Source: Halomonas organivorans (lineage in GTDB: Bacteria; Pseudomonadota; Gammaproteobacteria; Pseudomonadales; Halomonadaceae). Taken from it: DNA of 64,000 nucleotides. Of the stretch, positions 3,406-14,481 are shown one piece after another. Numbering within the stretch: position 1 is the first letter of the stretch; each line of letters starts with the position of its first letter. The notes beneath the pieces were generated by a model. That model was not told where the DNA came from, did no database searches, and was given only the letters and a program-made list of their open reading frames with translations. The stretch covers positions 126,746 to 190,745 of the forward strand of contig NZ_JACHXM010000006.1 in NCBI RefSeq assembly GCF_014192055.1. Direction: 5' to 3'. Made by a program: the position numbers and the translations under genes.

Positions 3406-3828
3406 ATGACCACCATGACCGCCGAGCAGGCCCAGCAGGAACTCGTCGACGAGTTCGAGATGTTCGACAACTGGATGGATCGCTACCAGTACATCATCGA
3501 CCTTGGCAAGCAGCTGCCGGCCTTCCCAGAGGAGTGGAAGACCGACGAGCGCAAGATCCAGGGCTGCCAGTCCAACGTCTGGATGCACCACGCGCGCGAC
3601 GGCGAGCGCCTGCATTTCCAGGCGATCTCCGATGCCGCCATCGTCTCCGGCCTGATCGCCGTGCTGATGCGCATCTACAACGATCGTCGGCCGCAAGACA
3701 TTCGCGACACCAGCCCGCACTTCCTCAAGGACCTGGGCCTCGACAAGCACCTGTCGCCGACGCGCAGCAATGGCCTGAATGCCATGCTGGAGCGCATCTA
3801 TCGGGTCGCCGAACAGGAAGCCGCCTGA
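3406..3828 (+). CDS. sufE: SufE family cysteine desulfuration protein
   Basis: SufE takes persulfide sulfur from the cysteine desulfurase SufS, or CsdA in the CsdE paralogue, and passes it to the Fe-S scaffold. The 140-residue product has the SufE fold signature, including the acceptor cysteine Cys54 in KIQGCQSNVW, which aligns with Cys51 of E. coli SufE. It starts 27 bp after the recombinase stop, with GTGAGGAG upstream. No sufS or csdA is in the window, so SufE and CsdE cannot be told apart here. It ends in a stem-loop shared with the convergent yidD. Confidence 0.9.
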   Translation: MTTMTAEQAQQELVDEFEMFDNWMDRYQYIIDLGKQLPAFPEEWKTDERKIQGCQSNVWMHHARDGERLHFQAISDAAIVSGLIAVLMRIYNDRRPQDIRDTSPHFLKDLGLDKHLSPTRSNGLNAMLERIYRVAEQEAA

Positions 3829-4280: not shown

Positions 4281-4721
4281 TCACGACTGGCCGTAGAGCG
4301 CCGCGGGGTCGATCAGCGGCGCGGAGGCGATCCGTGCCTGCTCGCCTTCAAGAACCACGTAGAAGCAGCTGCGACGCCCGGTGTGACAGGCGGGCCCTGT
4401 CTGCTCGACCTGCAGCAGCAGGGTATCGCCGTCGCAGTCGAGAGCGGCGCTCTTCAGGCGCTGCTGCTGGCCCGATGACTCTCCCTTGCGCCACAGCTTG
4501 CCTCGCGAACGCGACCAGTAGCAGACCTGGCTGGTGGCGAGCGTTTCTTCCAGGGACTCGCGATTCATCCATGCCATCATCAGCACCTCCCCGCTGTCAT
4601 GCTGCTGGGCGATGGCGGGAATCAGGCCGTCGTCATTGAAGCGGATGGCATCCAGGATCTCGCCGAGCGGGCGCCGGCTGTCGCGCTCGGCGCCTTCCAG
4701 GCGCTTGAAGGTATCGGTCAT
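4281..4721 (-). CDS. hisI: phosphoribosyl-AMP cyclohydrolase HisI
   Basis: HisI opens the purine ring of phosphoribosyl-AMP in the third step of histidine biosynthesis. It is the single-domain form (146 residues, no HisE fusion). The Mg-binding Asp cluster and first Zn cysteine are in DCDGD, and the other two Zn cysteines are in [13 protein letters not shown]. The ATG at 4721 is chosen because it overlaps the stop of the upstream Fur-family gene (ATGA), indicating translational coupling. Lying behind a Zur-type regulator rather than with other his genes suggests a link to zinc supply. Confidence 0.93.
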
Positions 4722-5197
4722 GAGCTCTCCGATGCTCGAGGTGTCGCAGAGGTCGATCGGCAGGCCTCGCATTGGCCAAGCAGCTCGATGGTCTGACGCT
4801 GCACGGCGAAGCCTAGTTCACGGGCGCGGCGGCCGAGCTGGGCGTTGATGTCGTCGAGATGCAGCTCTTCTACCCGCCCGCAGTCCCGGCAGATCAGCAG
4901 CTGGAAGCCATGGGCATGCTCCGGGCAGGGGCAGGCCACGTAAGCATTGAGCGACTCGATTCGGTGCACCAGGCCCTGGTCGATCAGAAACTCCAGGGCA
5001 CGATACACGGTCGGGGGGCGGGCGGACGCATGCTCGGTGGCGAGGCGATCGAGCAGCTCGTAGGCCTTCAGTCCGCCACGGGTGTCGGCAATCAGTTGCA
5101 GCACGCGCTGGCGGATCGGCGTGAAGCGCACGCCACGCTGACGGCACTGTCGCTCAGCCTGTTGCATCAGGGCGCTGGAATCGGTCATGCGGGCCAT
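4718..5197 (-). CDS. zur: Fur family regulator, Zur type
   Basis: A 159-residue Fur-superfamily repressor. The N-terminal winged helix (about residues 10-85) has the recognition segment [20 protein letters not shown]. The C-terminal dimerisation domain carries two CxxC pairs, Cys103/Cys106 and Cys143/Cys146, typical of the structural zinc site. The segment with [17 protein letters not shown] and the absence of the Fur HHDH motif favour Zur over Fur. A second in-frame ATG at 5188 is also possible; neither start has a strong ribosome site. It overlaps hisI by 4 nt, and zinc-enzyme synthesis may share its control. Confidence 0.82.
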
Positions 5198-7803: not shown

Positions 7804-8643
7804 TCAGGGGGCCGTCGCGTCATCTTGTGTTTCGGGAGCGGCGTCGGCCTCCGCTGCCGACGAAGAGGGATATTCGGGGCGGTCATACACGTGCCGGCGC
7901 GCAACATCGACGATGGCAATGTCCATGAGGAAGCGGCGCCCGAGCAGGACGGGATAGTCGAGATGCGTGCGATCGTTGAGGGTGAACTCCACGGCCTCGC
8001 GAAGCGGCCCCAGCGTCATCAGCAGACGGATCACCGGGCGCGATTCCTCGCCGGCGGCCTGGACGACCTTGACCCGGCGTTCCACCGGCGCCTCGATCCA
8101 GTCGTCACGCACGGCCTCGACCACGGCATCTTCATCGTTGAGGCCCAGCTTGAAGCGCACCCAATCCTCGCCGTCGCGTTCGAACGAGGTGATCTCCGTC
8201 GCCGACAGCGAGGACGTGTTGGCACCGGAATCCACGCGGGCCTCCAGGTAGGTCCCGACCTTGGGCAGGCCGATCCACTCGTTGCGGCCCACCAGGGTCT
8301 TGTTGTCCAGGCGCTCGTCCGCGGCCGGACACTCGCGGGTCACCGGCTCCTGTGGCGTGTCGTCTCGCAGGCCGGACAGGTCGCGTCGCACCTCGCGCAG
8401 CAGGTGGCCCACCTCGCGCACGTCGGCACGCAGGCCTAGCTGTTCGTCACGCTGACGCATCAGCGCCTGGTCTCGCGCATCGCAGCGGGCCTCGAGCTGT
8501 GTCTCGAGGCGGTCGATGCGTGTCTCGAAGGCCTGGGGCGTCAGCGGCTCGGGCGGCTCCTCGCGGTGCATGGGCACCAGACCACAGCCTCCGAGCGACA
8601 GCAGGACGGCGAGCGGCAGAATCAGCGAGGGGCGAATCGGCAT
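7804..8643 (-). CDS. retropepsin-like lipoprotein of the RimB / ATP-dependent Zn protease family
   Basis: A 279-residue lipoprotein. The start at 8643 gives a signal peptide ending in LSLGGC, with Cys20 lipidated. Residues 35-95 form a short coiled coil, and the C-terminal domain (about 115-265) is the 'putative ATP-dependent Zn protease' family. The family name is misleading: the domain has the aspartyl-protease signature DSGANTSS (Asp138) and the ending PVLLGRRFLMD, as in retropepsins. It is first in an operon with a 7TM inactive transglutaminase and a RimK-like ligase, echoing RimB beside RimK in pseudomonads. It probably trims or binds whatever the ligase makes, at the periplasmic face. 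Confidence 0.85.
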   Translation of the reverse strand: MPIRPSLILPLAVLLSLGGCGLVPMHREEPPEPLTPQAFETRIDRLETQLEARCDARDQALMRQRDEQLGLRADVREVGHLLREVRRDLSGLRDDTPQEPVTRECPAADERLDNKTLVGRNEWIGLPKVGTYLEARVDSGANTSSLSATEITSFERDGEDWVRFKLGLNDEDAVVEAVRDDWIEAPVERRVKVVQAAGEESRPVIRLLMTLGPLREAVEFTLNDRTHLDYPVLLGRRFLMDIAIVDVARRHVYDRPEYPSSSAAEADAAPETQDDATAP

Positions 8644-9035
8644 GTCGAGGACATCCTTGGCTGGGGCGAGTGGAACGGCATGGGCCACGCGAATGGCCGC
8701 AAAGATGATAAGGAGCAGGACACGGCCTGTCCACGATGGGTGGGGAGCGGCAGCCCATGCCATCAAGCCTTGCACGACTTCTTCACAATGCCAATTTAAC
8801 ATGCATGCACACCAAATATGTATTTATCTAGCAAAATCAACATGTTATATTTTCTATAGTGTCAGCTATGGATTTTGCTGTGTTGGCATGCATCCAGCCA
8901 GGTAGCGCTATTTCGGCCTACCTATTCTTAGGGTTAGCGATAAGAAATCTCAGGTAACACTATTATTGTGCAATGTCGGAATGCTTGCGCGAACCCTCAT
9001 CAAAGCCGGTCGTGAATACACAGCGCTTCAAATAG
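8644..9035. other. AT-rich intergenic region upstream of the protease-ligase operon
   Basis: No convincing gene is seen. The part nearest 8644 is GC-rich leader, while 8800-9000 is sharply AT-rich with -10-like hexamers (TATATT, TATAGT around 8850). It must hold the promoter for the minus-strand operon starting at 8643. The base composition change marks the left edge of the MerR-controlled island. Confidence 0.5.
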
Positions 9036-9060
9036 CCTTAAGTTAAAGTAAACTTGAAGG
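9036..9060. promoter_or_regulatory. MerR-type dyad upstream of merR gene
   Basis: The sequence starts CCTTAAGTT and ends AACTTGAAGG, an inverted repeat of CCTT(C)AAGTT with one base missing in the left arm. It resembles the SoxR/MerR operator class and matches the dyads upstream of the divergent and downstream genes (11297-11327, 12454-12484). It ends 32 bp before the merR start, so autoregulation is the likely role. Which strand is transcribed from it is unclear. Confidence 0.6.
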
Positions 9061-9092
9061 ACGAGGGTGACAGTCTTACATAGGGAGCCGAC

Positions 9093-9548
9093 ATGCAGAT
9101 GAAGATAGGCGAACTCGCGGAACGCACTGGCCTTGCTACATCGCGTATCCGCTATTACGAACGCATCGGGCTGCTGACGACAGTCGAGCGCACTGCCAAC
9201 GGTTACCGAACCTATCCGCCAGAGGCCGAAACCGTACTTAACCTGATTCTGAAGGGGCAGGCGGCCGGCTTTAGCCTTGATGAGCTGCACAAGCTAATCC
9301 CGAAAGACTTGACGCATTGGGATCATGACTCGCTGCTCGAGGCACTGTACCGCAAGGTGGCCGACATCGAATCGCTCGAAAAGCAGCTCGCCAGAAGCAA
9401 AGAACAGGTTCGCGCCGTCATCGCCGACATCGAAACCAAGCCGGACGACATTGACTGTAAGGCTAATGCAAAGCGTGTATTGTCACGGTTTGGACTAGGC
9501 GATACGACCGAGGCCGCCCATGACACCAGCACGGAATCATCGACATAG
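9093..9548 (+). CDS. MerR family transcriptional regulator
   Basis: A 151-residue MerR-type regulator. The winged helix-turn-helix is textbook: KIGELAERTGLATSRIRYYE (residues 4-23), then GLLTTVERTANGYRTY. A coiled-coil dimerisation helix covers residues about 80-118, and a single cysteine, Cys122, lies in the short C-terminal tail. The lack of a metal-binding loop with paired cysteines argues against a metal sensor. A lone cysteine and the neighbouring reductase, DJ-1-like and hydrolase genes suggest sensing of reactive electrophiles. It faces the DJ-1-like gene, with 47 bp between the stops. Confidence 0.9.
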   Translation: MQMKIGELAERTGLATSRIRYYERIGLLTTVERTANGYRTYPPEAETVLNLILKGQAAGFSLDELHKLIPKDLTHWDHDSLLEALYRKVADIESLEKQLARSKEQVRAVIADIETKPDDIDCKANAKRVLSRFGLGDTTEAAHDTSTESST

Positions 9549-9595
9549 GGCTTTCGTTGCCTGAATCAGGGAACATTGCACCTTGCACTGAATAT

Positions 9596-10279
9596 CTACA
9601 AAAGTGCAACGACGTGTTTCGCCGTCGCTTTCGCCGACTGCGGGTTCTGACCGGTCACCAGCCGCTCGTCGACGCTGACCTTGCTGACGAACGGTAGCCA
9701 AGCCTTCTCGTACCGCGCACCGCGTTCTCTCATTGTCTGCTCCGCGTTATAGGGCATCTTCTTGGCCACACCAGCGAGCACTTCCTCTGTCCAGGAGAAT
9801 CCGGTCACGCGTCGATGGGTGACCAGCAGTGAGCCGTCCGACAGATCGACGTTCAGTAGCCCGCAATAGCCGTGGCAGACGGCCGAGACGATGCCGCCGC
9901 CCTCGAAGATCTCGCGAGCGATCCGCTGTAACCCTTTGTTATCCGGAAAGTCCCACATCACAGCATGTCCGCCGGTGAAATAGATGGCATCGAAGTCGGC
10001 GGCGTCGATGTCATTTGGGGAAGCAGTAGCGGAGAGCAGCGATCGGCGATCGGCATCGGCGAGCCAGGCACGGGCCGACGTGTCGAGCAAGGGCCACTTG
10101 AGTGCCCGTGGTTCGAGCGGTATGGCACCGCCGCAGGGGCTGACCAGATGCTGGTCATGCCCCTCGGCAGCGAAGATGTCCCACGCGTGGGTCAGCTCCG
10201 ATAGCCAAAGCCCGGTCGGATGGACCGAGTCAGCGTAGTGCGCGACATTGCTAACGACATGCAGGATACGCTTGGCCAT
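9596..10279 (-). CDS. DJ-1/PfpI superfamily protein, Hsp31-like
   Basis: A 227-residue class-I glutamine-amidotransferase-like protein of the Hsp31/DJ-1 group. The nucleophile elbow is AVCHGYCGLL with Cys135 followed by His136; the usual upstream glutamate is Glu28 in LWLSELTHAW, and FTGGHAVMWDF fits the Hsp31-like GGH motif. Relatives act as glyoxalase III (methylglyoxal to lactate), protein deglycases or redox chaperones; which applies here cannot be read from sequence. ATG 10279 is preferred because homology starts at MAKRILHVVS. It lies 62 bp behind the acetoacetate-decarboxylase-like gene in the same orientation. Confidence 0.85.
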   Translation of the reverse strand: MAKRILHVVSNVAHYADSVHPTGLWLSELTHAWDIFAAEGHDQHLVSPCGGAIPLEPRALKWPLLDTSARAWLADADRRSLLSATASPNDIDAADFDAIYFTGGHAVMWDFPDNKGLQRIAREIFEGGGIVSAVCHGYCGLLNVDLSDGSLLVTHRRVTGFSWTEEVLAGVAKKMPYNAEQTMRERGARYEKAWLPFVSKVSVDERLVTGQNPQSAKATAKHVVALL

Positions 10280-10341
10280 GCGGTGTCTCTCTCGGTGAGT
10301 GTTGTGGGCGCGCGGCTGAAATGTGTCCGGCACGTGGCGGG

Positions 10342-11250
10342 CTAGCGGTCGAAGGCAGGGAGTGGTACGGGTAGATCCAATACAATCTGGGCGTGTCGCA
10401 CCACATCCATGCGAAGGGCCGTGCTGGCCCCCAGACCATCGAGCAGCTGACTCATTGGTCCGCCCTGGCGGGACAGCGTCACATCGCGCGGGAACATGCG
10501 TTGAGCGTATGACAACGTATTCGTGCGGACGACGGTGCGATGCCAGCGGCCGTCTACCTGATGGAGCATGGTGCTTGTGGCCATGCGTGACTGCGACGTG
10601 ACATCGGTGAAAGCGGGTGTCGGCGCGCTCAGCACCAGATCGGTCGCACCGCCCGTTGTCTGGATACCTGCCCGCATCTCTTTCTCGTCACCGATGCTGA
10701 CATCAATAGCCGTGCGCCATTTAGGCAATTGATAACCCTGCACGCCGCGTACCCATGCAATTTCGGTGTCGACCGGGAGCGCCAACACATGGGCGAAAAA
10801 GCTGCGTCGTCGCACGGAATCTGACAGTTCCAGCGCGTGTGAGCCGCGCGCGCCTGGTCGGCGCACAACCGCCGCGATGGAGACTTCCTGGTAGGGGTCG
10901 TTATCGCATACATCGTAAGTAAAGAACGTCAGCGCCACGAGACCGCGCCCTGGGGTTGCCCGCAACGGTTCGAGGGGCTCCGGGAGCATGGCACGAAGAC
11001 GTGCGATAGGGGTAGCGAGCAGGAGCTGTAGGCTGCGAGCGTGATAGTAGAAGTTCGGCGCCCAGATGGGGCCAACACGTGACGCGACCTGCTGTTTAGG
11101 AATCCGACGAAACCAGTCCACGTCGCTTACCGCAGAATCTTTCTCGACCTCGTCCAGATCGGGATTCATTCGGAAGCGATCATAGTACCCCCCTCTGAGA
11201 ATGGCGACCCTCTGCGACCCGAACTCGATCTCGGCGACCCCTTCTTTCAT
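10342..11250 (-). CDS. acetoacetate decarboxylase-like protein
   Basis: A 302-residue protein with the acetoacetate decarboxylase (ADC) fold pattern: LTFFTYDVCDNDPYQEVSIA resembles the ADC substrate-pocket segment, and QGYQLPKWRTAIDV matches the region carrying the Schiff-base lysine in true ADC. Divergent ADC-like proteins can be decarboxylases, aldolase-dehydratases or hydratases, so only the family is claimed. The start at 11250 has AAGGGGGAG upstream. Its promoter at 11297-11327 has a MerR-type 19-bp spacer. It is probably co-transcribed with the DJ-1-like gene. Confidence 0.65.
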   Translation of the reverse strand: MKEGVAEIEFGSQRVAILRGGYYDRFRMNPDLDEVEKDSAVSDVDWFRRIPKQQVASRVGPIWAPNFYYHARSLQLLLATPIARLRAMLPEPLEPLRATPGRGLVALTFFTYDVCDNDPYQEVSIAAVVRRPGARGSHALELSDSVRRRSFFAHVLALPVDTEIAWVRGVQGYQLPKWRTAIDVSIGDEKEMRAGIQTTGGATDLVLSAPTPAFTDVTSQSRMATSTMLHQVDGRWHRTVVRTNTLSYAQRMFPRDVTLSRQGGPMSQLLDGLGASTALRMDVVRHAQIVLDLPVPLPAFDR

Positions 11251-11296
11251 GACTCCCCCTTGGCGATGGCATGGCTCGATCCGACTACCTGCCATG

Positions 11297-11327
11297 ACTC
11301 TAAGGTGAAACCAAACTTTAAGGTCAA
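11297..11327 (-). promoter_or_regulatory. MerR-type promoter of the ADC-like / DJ-1-like operon
   Basis: Read on the minus strand: TTGACC (11322-11327), a 19-bp spacer, then TAGAGT (11297-11302). The spacer starts TTAAAGTT and carries a partial dyad. An overlong 19-bp spacer with TTGACCTT at the -35 is shared with the promoter at 12454-12484, as expected for MerR-activated promoters. Confidence 0.65.
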
Positions 11328-11488
11328 GCGAAGTCGGGCGTTCTACCTTTCTAGAGGGCCCATTCACATGATCAGCGTTGACCTTGAACCCGGCTTCAAC
11401 CCTAGATTGGAGGGGCGGTATGGTGCCTGGCTTCGCAAGAAGCGCGCAGCACGGCACAACATCGACCAACGGCACAGGAGATACCGAT

Positions 11489-12319
11489 ATGGGGTACGCA
11501 ACCACAACCGATGGCGTCGAGATATTCTACAAGGACTGGGGGCCCCGCGATGCGCCGGTCATCTTCTTTCACCACGGCTGGCCGCTGAGCGCCGATGACT
11601 GGGATGCCCAGATGCTGTTCTTCCTGGCGGAGGGCTACCGAGTCGTAGCGCACGACCGGCGCGGGCATGGACGTTCCAGCCAAGTCTGGGATGGCCACGA
11701 CATGGATCATTACGCCGATGATGTGGCCGCGGTGGTCAACCACCTTGGCGTGCAGGGGGCGGTACATGTTGGTCATTCCACCGGTGGCGGCGAGGTGATC
11801 CACTACGTGGCCCGTCACGGCGAGGACAAGGTGGCGAAGGCCGTACTGATCAGTGCAGTCCCTCCTTTGATGGTCAAGACCAATGACAACCCCGACGGGC
11901 TGGACAAGTCCGTGTTCGACGATTTCCAGTCTCAGGTGGCGAGCAATCGTGCACAGTTCTATCAGGATGTACCGGCGGGGCCTTTCTATGGTTATAACCG
12001 TGATGGGGCTACGCCATCGGAGGGCATCATCCGCAACTGGTGGCGTCAGGGCATGATGGGCAGCGCCAAAGCGCACTATGATGGCATCGTGGCGTTTTCC
12101 CAGACCGATTTTACCGAAGACCTGAAAAACGCCAGCCTACCGGTGCTGGTCATGCACGGGGAGGACGATCAGATCGTGCCGTTCGAGCTCTCCGGCAAGA
12201 AATCCGCCGAGTTGGCTCCCAACGCGATGCTGAAGACCTACCCGGGCTTTCCGCACGGTATGCCCACGACGCACGCCGATACGATCAACGCCGATCTTTT
12301 GGCCTTCATTCGTGACTGA
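11489..12319 (+). CDS. alpha/beta hydrolase, non-heme chloroperoxidase-like arylesterase
   Basis: A 276-residue cytosolic alpha/beta hydrolase of the arylesterase/cofactor-free haloperoxidase family. The nucleophile elbow is GHSTGGGE (Ser97), the acid is in HGEDDQIVPF, and the histidine is in the segment GFPHGMPTTH. HHGWPLSADDW forms the oxyanion side. Family members hydrolyse esters or lactones; the old bromoperoxidase activity is a side reaction. The ATG at 11489 has ACAGGAG before it and lies in the divergent region shared with the ADC-like gene, so the same regulator probably controls it. It is followed by a stem-loop and then an Old Yellow Enzyme gene. Confidence 0.88.
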   Translation: MGYATTTDGVEIFYKDWGPRDAPVIFFHHGWPLSADDWDAQMLFFLAEGYRVVAHDRRGHGRSSQVWDGHDMDHYADDVAAVVNHLGVQGAVHVGHSTGGGEVIHYVARHGEDKVAKAVLISAVPPLMVKTNDNPDGLDKSVFDDFQSQVASNRAQFYQDVPAGPFYGYNRDGATPSEGIIRNWWRQGMMGSAKAHYDGIVAFSQTDFTEDLKNASLPVLVMHGEDDQIVPFELSGKKSAELAPNAMLKTYPGFPHGMPTTHADTINADLLAFIRD

Positions 12320-12327
12320 TCCTGTAT

Positions 12328-12358
12328 GGGCACCGCGAGGCATCGCCACGTGGTGCCC
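12328..12358 (+). terminator. stem-loop terminator after the esterase gene
   Basis: GGGCACC at 12328-12334 pairs with GGTGCCC at 12352-12358, with an inner GGC/GCC pairing, and is followed by CTTTATT. It lies just after the hydrolase stop and before the separate promoter of the Old Yellow Enzyme gene. Confidence 0.6.
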
Positions 12359-12453
12359 CTTTATTCAATTCAAGCCTGCCGCATCATGAGATGGCGATGC
12401 ACCATCCATCCTTTACCCGTGGCTTGTTCGAACCGTCATGGCGAACCCCACCA

Positions 12454-12484
12454 TTGACCTTGAAGTTAACTTCAACGATAAGCT
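12454..12484 (+). promoter_or_regulatory. MerR-type promoter with perfect 16-bp palindrome, upstream of OYE
   Basis: TTGACC at 12454-12459 is followed directly by the perfect palindrome TTGAAGTTAACTTCAA (12460-12475). A -10-like TAAGCT at 12479-12484 gives a 19-bp spacer. An operator placed inside an overlong spacer is the hallmark of MerR-family activation, and the palindrome core resembles the SoxR box. The start codon of the controlled gene lies at 12512, with AGGAG before it. Confidence 0.75.
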
Positions 12485-12511
12485 CCTCGCATAACCACTG
12501 AGGAGCCGCTA

Positions 12512-13744
12512 ATGAGTGTTTTTGATGACCTGGTCCTGCCCAATGGCTCACGTATGCCTAACCGTATCGCCAAGGCGGCGATGGAAGAGAACATGGCTGA
12601 CGGTTCACAGGCGCCATCTGAACGATTGATGCGCCTGTACCAAGCTTGGGCCGACGGTGGTGCCGGTCTGCTGATCACCGGTAACGTGATGGTCGATAGC
12701 CGGGCAATGACAGGCCCGGGCGGGGTAGTACTGGAGGATGATGGCCAACTCGACAAATTCGAGCGCTGGGCAGCGATCGGACGCACCAGCGGCACGCAGT
12801 TCTGGCTACAGATCAATCATCCCGGTCGACAGATGCGCGCCAACCTCGGTCAGCAGACTTGGGCGCCCTCGGCGGTATCACTCGATCTGGGTTCGTCCTC
12901 GAAGCTGTTTGACACTCCGAAAGCGATGACGCAGTCCAATATCGACGAGGTAATAGCACGCTTTGCCCGTACGGCGCAGCTCGGAGAGCGAGCCGGTTTC
13001 ACCGGTGTCGAGATTCATGCCGCGCACGGTTACCTGCTTAGCCAGTTCCTGTCGCCGCTGAGCAATCGGCGCGAGGACGAGTGGGGCGGTTCTCTGGTCA
13101 ACCGTGCGCGCCTGCTACTGGAGATCGTCAGAGCCGTGCGTGCAGCCGTATCGCCCGGTTTTGCGGTAGCCGTCAAGCTCAACTCTGCGGACTTCCAGCG
13201 CGGTGGTTTCAGTGCTGAAGACGCACAACGAGTCGTCGAGATGCTGAATGAGGAGGACGTGGATCTGGTTGAGCTCTCAGGGGGCAGCTACGAAGCCCCA
13301 GCTATGCAAGGGAAGGCCCGCGACGGACGGACACTCGCTCGGGAAGCCTATTTCCTGGAATTTGCCCGCGACATCCGCAAGGTGGCAAATATGCCCGTCA
13401 TGGTCACCGGTGGAATACGCCGGCGCGAGGTGGCTGAACAGGTGGTCGAAGCTGGCGTGGACATGGTAGGCATCGGCACGGCCTTGGCGATCAATCCGAC
13501 ACTGCCCAATGCTTGGCTGGCCGGCAGGGACCCAGCGCCGACGTTGCCACCGATTCAATGGAAGAACAAAGCGATTGCTTCCCTGGCGAACATGGCCGTG
13601 GTTAAACACCAGCTACGCCGGATTAGCCGGGGCAGGGTGCCCATCCCTTATGTCTCGCCCGTCCGTGCCTTACTGCAGCAACAAGTATGCGACATCCACC
13701 GAACACGTCAGTATCGCCATCGGATGGCACAGCGGTTGGAGTGA
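12512..13744 (+). CDS. Old Yellow Enzyme family NADH:flavin oxidoreductase
   Basis: A 410-residue FMN-dependent ene-reductase family protein. Family landmarks in order: N-terminal VLPNGSRMPNRIAKAAM, NHPGRQM, the active-site histidines in GVEIHAAHGYLLSQFLSP, SNRREDEWGGS, and the FMN-phosphate region MVTGGIRRREVAEQ followed by VDMVGIGTAL. OYEs reduce alpha,beta-unsaturated carbonyls and some nitro compounds or quinones. A MerR-type palindromic promoter lies immediately upstream, which fits induction by electrophiles. A stem-loop at 13746-13785 follows the stop. Confidence 0.9.
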   Translation: MSVFDDLVLPNGSRMPNRIAKAAMEENMADGSQAPSERLMRLYQAWADGGAGLLITGNVMVDSRAMTGPGGVVLEDDGQLDKFERWAAIGRTSGTQFWLQINHPGRQMRANLGQQTWAPSAVSLDLGSSSKLFDTPKAMTQSNIDEVIARFARTAQLGERAGFTGVEIHAAHGYLLSQFLSPLSNRREDEWGGSLVNRARLLLEIVRAVRAAVSPGFAVAVKLNSADFQRGGFSAEDAQRVVEMLNEEDVDLVELSGGSYEAPAMQGKARDGRTLAREAYFLEFARDIRKVANMPVMVTGGIRRREVAEQVVEAGVDMVGIGTALAINPTLPNAWLAGRDPAPTLPPIQWKNKAIASLANMAVVKHQLRRISRGRVPIPYVSPVRALLQQQVCDIHRTRQYRHRMAQRLE

Positions 13745-13823: not shown

Positions 13824-13839
13824 CATAATATATATTATG
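13824..13839. promoter_or_regulatory. perfect 16-bp AT palindrome upstream of lipoprotein gene
   Basis: CATAATATATATTATG is a perfect palindrome in an AT-rich patch 100 bp before the DUF3833 lipoprotein start. It includes a TATATT -10-like hexamer. It is an operator or promoter candidate for the lipoprotein gene; no regulator can be named. Confidence 0.4.
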
Positions 13840-13938: not shown

Positions 13939-14481
13939 ATGTATAGAAAAATGCGTGTCGCCGCCTGTTGGCTCTCCCTGCTGTTGCTGTCGGGCTGTGC
14001 CGGCGTCGACGTCGAGCAGTATGCCGGCACCACGCCGCGGCTGGATATCGCCGAGTACTTCGAAGGCCAGACGAGAGCCTGGGGAATGGTCCAGGACTAC
14101 AGCGGCGAGGTGCAGCGACGCTTCACCGTCGATATCGAGGGACGGATCGACGGCGACACCCTGACCCTCGATGAGCGGTTCACCTATGCCGACGGCGAGA
14201 CCGACCGCCGCGTCTGGACCTTCGAGCGGCGCGACGACGGCCGCTGGCTAGGCCATGCCAGCGACGTCGAGGGGCCTGTGGAGGCACGCCAGGCCGGCCA
14301 CGCCTTCCACATGAGCTACCCGCTCGAGGTGACGGTCGACGGCCGCGACATCACCTTCAGCATGGATGACTGGATGTACCTGCAGCCAGATGGAAAGTTG
14401 ATCAATCGCACGGCCATGCGCAAGTTCGGCCTGACCCTGGCCGAGATCACGATCGCCTTCGAGCGTGATAACTCGCCCTGA
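13939..14481 (+). CDS. DUF3833-type lipoprotein
   Basis: A 180-residue exported lipoprotein: a basic N-terminus, a hydrophobic stretch and a lipobox ending LLSGC with Cys20. The mature part matches the DUF3833 pattern, including IAEYFEGQTRAWGMVQDYSG and the late FSMDDWMYLQPDG. Function is unknown; the predicted beta-rich fold suggests a small outer-membrane-anchored binding protein. An ATG at 13951 is an alternative start that keeps the signal peptide. It stands alone, with the formate-dehydrogenase-like gene convergent 38 bp downstream. Confidence 0.8.
   Translation: MYRKMRVAACWLSLLLLSGCAGVDVEQYAGTTPRLDIAEYFEGQTRAWGMVQDYSGEVQRRFTVDIEGRIDGDTLTLDERFTYADGETDRRVWTFERRDDGRWLGHASDVEGPVEARQAGHAFHMSYPLEVTVDGRDITFSMDDWMYLQPDGKLINRTAMRKFGLTLAEITIAFERDNSP

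Follow-up and report, generated by a model that had tools for sequence, protein, structure and literature searches.

A MerR-type regulator and a probable regulon of carbonyl-handling enzymes with 19-bp-spacer promoters in Halomonas organivorans

Introduction

In the NemR–NemA system, an ene-reductase stands under a thiol-based electrophile sensor and is tied to methylglyoxal and quinone stress. Its regulator, NemR, is a TetR-type repressor. Here we analyse a 64,000-nt stretch of Halomonas organivorans DNA (contig NZ_JACHXM010000006.1, the whole stretch hereafter called the window; home genome 4.8 Mb in 72 contigs), where an Old Yellow Enzyme (OYE) family ene-reductase likewise belongs to a putative regulon, but with a MerR-type regulator and in the company of an acetoacetate-decarboxylase-like (ADC-like) protein, a DJ-1/PfpI-family protein and an alpha/beta hydrolase. 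The five genes form a module at 9034–13744. From promoter sequences and their recurrence among relatives, one MerR protein very probably controls these local carbonyl-handling genes as a regulon. We found no description of this regulon in the literature searched, subscription papers being largely outside that search, so that its absence there is no proof.

The MerR family offers the closest described regulators. PMC9909328 names 19–20-bp spacers as a mark of MerR promoters, and a dyad within a spacer of this length is found in three promoters of the window. The same paper places the ligand site of the metal sensors CueR, MerR, CadR and ZntR in a C-terminal loop region with two cysteines. The window protein resembles these sensors in overall fold and in the position of that region, but it has one loop cysteine, and whereas metal sensors serve metal transporters, the targets identified here are oxidoreductases, hydrolases and the like. 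SoxR, in which four cysteines hold a [2Fe-2S] cluster (PMC9909328), shares the MerR fold with the window protein (Z score 13.2, root-mean-square deviation (rmsd) 3.0 over 117 residues). NmlR and AdhR, as PMC4776306 and PMC9909328 describe them, are similar in combining the MerR fold, one conserved cysteine and genes for aldehyde or carbonyl detoxification. Their conserved residue is Cys54 or Cys52, whereas the window protein has Cys122, after the dimerisation helix, and a Pfam scan revealed no adhC/estD pair of their kind in the window's module. The locus offers a testable case of a metal-sensor scaffold re-used for sensing reactive organic molecules, and could connect several enzymes of uncertain assignment, the ADC-like protein in particular, with a single stimulus.

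Results and discussion

Three promoters with 19-bp spacers serve the enzyme genes of the module. P_oye (12454–12484, + strand; TTGACC-N19-TAAGCT) precedes the OYE gene (12512–13744, +). P_adc (11327–11297, − strand; TTGACC-N19-TAGAGT) precedes the ADC-like gene (10342–11250, −), which likely forms an operon with the DJ-1 gene (9596–10279, −) across a 62-bp gap. Back to back with P_adc, P_hyd (11378–11408, + strand; TTGACC-N19-TAGATT) lies before the hydrolase gene (11489–12319, +). A preliminary description, made from the sequence alone, had located P_oye and P_adc exactly, on opposite strands and with their 19-bp spacers, and both are real; P_hyd it had missed, so its count was one short. It had also reported the perfect 16-bp palindrome TTGAAGTTAACTTCAA inside P_oye, which stands precisely at 12460–12475. 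By itself this palindrome is unremarkable, because the window holds seven more perfect palindromes of at least 14 bp (eight with that of P_oye). The dyad that it had noted at 9036–9060, before merR (9093–9548, +), is likewise real (CCTTAAGTTAAAGTAAACTTGAAGG, best read as 9064–9034 on the − strand), though imperfect, with arms offset by one base, and devoid of recognisable −35/−10 hexamers. Weaker hexamer-free dyads lie within ~60 bp upstream of merR in several relatives (for example L016, L018, L020, L023 and L034), and because of this likeness we read the window dyad as probably a self-operator or the relic of a divergent promoter. In 10 other loci a complete 19-bp promoter is directed towards merR, elsewhere a site faces away into a divergent gene, and the inspected upstream regions of some relatives contain no dyad-like element.

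The sites stand out clearly from background. A 31-bp weight matrix, trained on 37 distinct promoters before OYE homologues of relatives with the window excluded, placed P_oye (score 42.2), P_adc (38.2), P_hyd (25.1) and the merR dyad (19.5) at the top of the window; the opposite strand of the OYE palindrome followed at 15.9 and rank six scored 3.0, while 200 random windows with matching first-order base composition scored 5.3 at best. A TTGAC-type site was present in all 50 OYE upstream regions of relatives. A sequence-only model, R1, built from 74 of 127 distinct sites of relatives (hand-picked and mostly higher-scoring), served for the genome-wide motif search that the preliminary description had proposed. 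Across the 4.8-Mb home genome it returned five matches at E values up to 10, all in the MerR locus: P_oye (E 2.3e-5, the genome's best), P_hyd (3.1e-3), P_adc (8.8e-3), the core of the merR dyad (0.34) and the reverse strand of the OYE palindrome (1.06). No further R1 site appeared elsewhere in this genome, where 150 of 632 candidates were scored and a weak distant site could be missed. A regular expression fitted to the three window sites retrieved exactly those three from the genome (control 0); because it was fitted to the window's own sites, we prefer the matrix and R1, which were trained on relatives.

Among relatives, TTGACA/C occurs in 87 of 131 upstream regions, and 82 of these 87 have TANNNT at a spacer of 19; other spacers in the same regions were 13 (28 cases, inside the dyad), 21 and 25 (one each). 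By gene class, TTGACA/C with TANNNT at spacer 19 was found before 47/50 OYE, 18/43 ADC, 15/23 DJ-1 and 2/15 hydrolase genes, counts that are based on 150-bp upstream regions and miss more distant sites and operon-internal genes.

The association of these sites with this type of regulator recurs widely. Scanning the genome collection with a MerR alignment yielded at least 580 relatives, the best 80 loci of which were kept; homologues of the neighbouring genes were sought by tblastn (at least 140 bits) within 8 kb of merR or to the contig end. Two loci, L024 and L034, are apparently the same records as the family genomes G004 and G121 and are not independent of alignment A1. The 80 loci span Pseudomonas, Burkholderia, Paraburkholderia, Stenotrophomonas, Marinobacter, Shewanella, Sphingomonas and others. 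At least one of the OYE, ADC-like, DJ-1 and hydrolase genes stood near merR in 69 of them (OYE in 50, ADC-like in 43, DJ-1 in 22, hydrolase in 15). The matrix marked 173 places at a score of at least 16 versus none in the reversed sequences (223 versus 2 at a score of at least 8; no match at 14 or above in the reversed control). Subtracting 27 opposite-strand or overlapping duplicates left 146 sites, distributed over 79 of the 80 loci.

The genes behind the 146 sites encode OYE (49), ADC-like proteins (36, of which 15 belong to the close subfamily, at 50% or more), DJ-1 proteins (19), an epimerase-like NAD(P) protein (16), MerR itself (10), hydrolases (5) and saccharopine-dehydrogenase-like reductases (4+1); these classes come from sequence clustering, with Pfam applied to 1 of 16 epimerase-like and 3 of 5 saccharopine-dehydrogenase-like proteins. 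Six sites have no clear downstream open reading frame, this being missing, short or in the wrong frame (L088:7984, L022:5478, L051:10333, L042:3590, L049:528 and L018:782). Promoters of the P_hyd kind precede hydrolase genes in L037, L051, L061, L068 and L071, and hydrolase-upstream sites occur in L022 and L042. The back-to-back pair of ADC and hydrolase sites seen in the window is repeated in L022 and L068, and in L042, L061 and L071 the two sites are separated by a second merR copy. Two MerR paralogues share one locus in L037, L042, L050, L061 and L071. An aldehyde dehydrogenase gene recurrently adjoins merR (L050, 9399–10907, and seven other loci; PF00171 in the one scanned). A comparison of the MerR protein with plasmids gave 19 records, none with a more specific annotation than 'MerR family transcriptional regulator'.

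Footprinting among relatives, the genome-wide site search and the recurrent neighbours together strongly support the MerR regulon put forward in the preliminary description. Its gene set (ene-reductase, DJ-1/Hsp31-like, ADC-like, esterase) agrees with Pfam, PDB relatives and fold, and the single C-terminal Cys122 that it had pointed out is confirmed, and invariant, as its idea of an electrophile response needs. As such promoters accompany a regulator of this type in 79 of 80 loci, one experiment would be informative for many species.

The regulator, a protein of 151 aa, contains PF13411 (54.9 bits), PF00376 (53.9 bits) and PF09278, all above cut-off. Cys122, its sole cysteine, is conserved in 86 of 86 MerR copies, counting the window's own and the five second copies; of 85 readable copies, 78 have no other cysteine. 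In the 85 aligned rows, P70 and W76 never vary; position 78 holds histidine in 78 of them and cysteine in 5. The predicted model (mean predicted local distance difference test (pLDDT) 84.8) comprises a DNA-binding part, a dimerisation helix (78–114), a loop and a last helix (122–132) that Cys122 opens, in alignment with CueR Cys120. The CueR ligand site is reached by Ser77 of the partner subunit, according to PMC9909328; since H78 aligns next to this serine, a Trp-His-Cys pocket would be a fair inference by analogy. The closest folds to the model are SoxR, MtaN, CueR and CadR, at Z 12–13 and tied within ~1 Z.

Assignment to a named subfamily was attempted with NCBIfam, and the protein fell well under the cut-off of all 13 models listed for it. 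The metal sensors came out at 67 bits for CueR (cut-off 147.4), 58.8 for ZntR (167.95), 56.7 for MerR (150.85) and 55.6 for CadR-PbrR (151.45). NmlR reached 46.7 bits (cut-off 175), and the sole cysteine is at 122, not at ~52–54; SoxR reached 31.9 bits (cut-off 116.9), with one cysteine instead of four. Because the defining features of NmlR, SoxR and the metal sensors were tested and are absent here, the protein is not placed with any of them. In five Burkholderia homologues (L039, L043, L055, L061 and L071), a second cysteine occupies the His78 position in the presumed ligand pocket; these proteins are a natural test for disulfide sensing.

The explanation that we favour is a MerR switch acting on 19-bp-spacer promoters in response to an electrophilic carbonyl. 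A MerR dimer would sit on the dyads inside the over-long spacers of the three promoters, and would also occupy the hexamer-free dyad at its own gene. On receiving the signal it would distort the DNA, allowing RNA polymerase to use the promoters, and the carbonyl-handling enzymes would be made. The signal would most likely be a small electrophilic or unsaturated carbonyl (an enone, quinone or dicarbonyl) captured near Cys122; in metal-sensing MerR proteins, ligands are bound in this same C-terminal region. We put the probability of this explanation as a whole at roughly two in three; DNA binding, activation, the identity of the inducer and covalent sensing are steps that we infer. Gene content and the one conserved cysteine incline us somewhat towards an electrophile as inducer, of the classes named in the preliminary description (unsaturated carbonyls, methylglyoxal or quinones), and conservation makes Cys122 a plausible, if tentative, candidate for a covalent sensor. 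Slightly more speculative is a wider proposal, drawn by analogy with CueR: a widespread, unnamed MerR subfamily might have turned the metal loop into a one-thiol sensor, with Cys122 facing Trp76 and His78 of the partner subunit and capturing electrophilic carbonyls, and might control a mobile regulon with interchangeable members, drawn from OYE, ADC-superfamily, Hsp31 and other enzymes, ADC-like ones among them. The promoters and sensor would be ready-made parts for carbonyl or enone biosensors.

The main rival, ranked second, fits the same gene set. The module could be a catabolic regulon for the degradation of unsaturated or cyclic ketones, with MerR binding a substrate or intermediate non-covalently and Cys122 being structural or a part of the pocket. 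The ene-reductase, the ADC-superfamily enzyme, the hydrolase and the epimerase-like reductase do resemble steps on a carbon skeleton; an aldehyde dehydrogenase is present in 8 loci, one ADC relative (6eej) is an aldolase-dehydratase that yields a dienone, and the invariant Trp76 suits a hydrophobic pocket. Yet gene content varies freely among the loci, which better suits independent detoxifying enzymes than a fixed pathway, the window's module contains no transporter, and DJ-1/Hsp31 proteins are stress rather than catabolic enzymes. We regard a catabolic role as less likely, but it is the alternative to be taken most seriously.

An oxidative signal is considerably less probable. Hypochlorite, hydroperoxide or disulfide stress would here oxidise Cys122 to an intersubunit or mixed disulfide, for which one thiol per subunit provides two per dimer; the five Burkholderia homologues in which residue 78 is a second cysteine and the chloroperoxidase type of the hydrolase fit this idea. 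However, most 'chloroperoxidases' with this fold act as esterases in practice, and neither a peroxiredoxin nor a catalase is among the gene classes identified behind the 146 sites (6 of which lack a clear gene).

Several observations weigh against the electrophile-responsive MerR switch that we favour. On R1 alone, the merR dyad is not significant. Eleven of the 80 loci lack all four enzymes, 10 of them still carrying a site, and locus L034 has merR without a full site within ~8 kb, its weak hexamer-free dyad before merR being the only element. The window's module showed no aldehyde enzyme of the adhC type. R1 also matches (E 0.01) in 35 of the 250 family genomes; this merR is missing from 33 of them (at E 1e-25), and both cases inspected (L114 and L099) lie at a peroxiredoxin/DsbD-like/MerR cluster. 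The 19-bp promoter type is, as judged from these matches, common to more than one MerR subfamily, and because of the 33 genomes the motif by itself is not enough to recognise this regulator. We link the sites to this merR because of their locus, their co-occurrence with it and the lack of other sites found in its own genome. The cluster in L114 and L099 encodes a 1-Cys-type peroxiredoxin, a DsbD_TM/CcdA-like protein and a MerR protein with two cysteines, with 19-bp promoters, and many family genomes have a second R1 match ~9 kb from the first.

The promoters might, then, be genuine MerR-type promoters owned by another MerR protein of the genome. There are nine MerR-like matches in it at E 0.001, this one included, and similar sites serve another MerR cluster in relatives. 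Such ownership is nevertheless very improbable: elsewhere in the home genome no further site was found, in 79 of 80 loci, drawn from many genera, the sites accompany a merR of this kind, and here sites and merR share a probable insert. Least probable of all is a metal sensor of the CueR/ZntR/CadR/MerR type, as the best NCBIfam similarity (CueR) and the like fold and loop position are set against 67 bits under a cut-off of 147.4, one cysteine rather than the two described in PMC9909328, and the lack of a metal transporter from the gene classes that could be identified downstream of the sites.

By family, all four enzymes would be expected to act on or beside carbonyl groups. The OYE protein (PF00724, 170.9 bits, cut-off 27) has 7fev as its closest PDB relative, and YqjM-type structures are also among its relatives. 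The DJ-1/PfpI protein (PF01965, 50.9 bits) is of the Hsp31/glyoxalase III type, with PDB relatives 1u9c, 4p5p and 4lru (glyoxalase III); residues E28, C135 and H136, kept in at least 95% of 24 sequences, are presumably the catalytic residues of that type. The hydrolase (PF00561, 103.5 bits), of the cofactor-free chloroperoxidase/esterase type, matches the esterase 1zoi at E 1.3e-160, with 4dgq and 1a88 also very close, and conserves S97, D227 and H256 in at least 95% of 16 sequences, which we take to be the Ser-Asp-His triad of the family.

The ADC-like protein scored just above the Pfam cut-off (PF06314, 32.1 bits, cut-off 29.8), and its sequence had no PDB match at E up to 1. Its predicted fold (pLDDT 92.1) matched twelve ADC-superfamily entries at Z 17.2–20.8, assigned by entry title except MppR, which we assume to be a member, and the next row was at Z 5.2. 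The top match was 3c8w (Z 20.8, rmsd 3.2 over 214 residues), and the aldolase-dehydratase 6eej was among the others. Lys177, in YxLPKW, is a candidate Schiff-base lysine and is invariant in 40/40 sequences, which fall into two subfamilies ~30% identical.

At E 1e-25, merR was found in three of 250 family genomes, its own included, and at E 1e-80 the OYE gene was found in its own genome only, of 41 genus genomes. The flanking genes, a PF05618 zinc-protease-like gene (7804–8643, −) and a PF12915 DUF3833 gene (13939–14481, +), are 5.3 kb apart here. They lie 0.28–0.70 kb apart in 9 of the 13 genus relatives that have both (G165, G179, G201, G217, G233, G238, G244, G251 and G254); in G141, G189 and G159 the distance is 3.9, 5.0 and 12.7 kb, and in G197 they are on different contigs. 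Because the two genes neighbour each other in 9 of 13 relatives, synteny suggests that the regulon module most likely arrived as one insert of ~5 kb. The insertion place may be a hot spot at which other DNA has been taken up too. Another perfect 16-bp palindrome, CATAATATATATTATG (13824–13839), stands close to the insert's right edge and upstream of the DUF3833 gene; it may be an operator or an insertion end. Farther to the left, the window holds a Fur/Zur-family regulator gene (4718–5197, −; PF01475) and a perfect 18-bp palindrome, GAACTCGTCGACGAGTTC, at 3439–3456.

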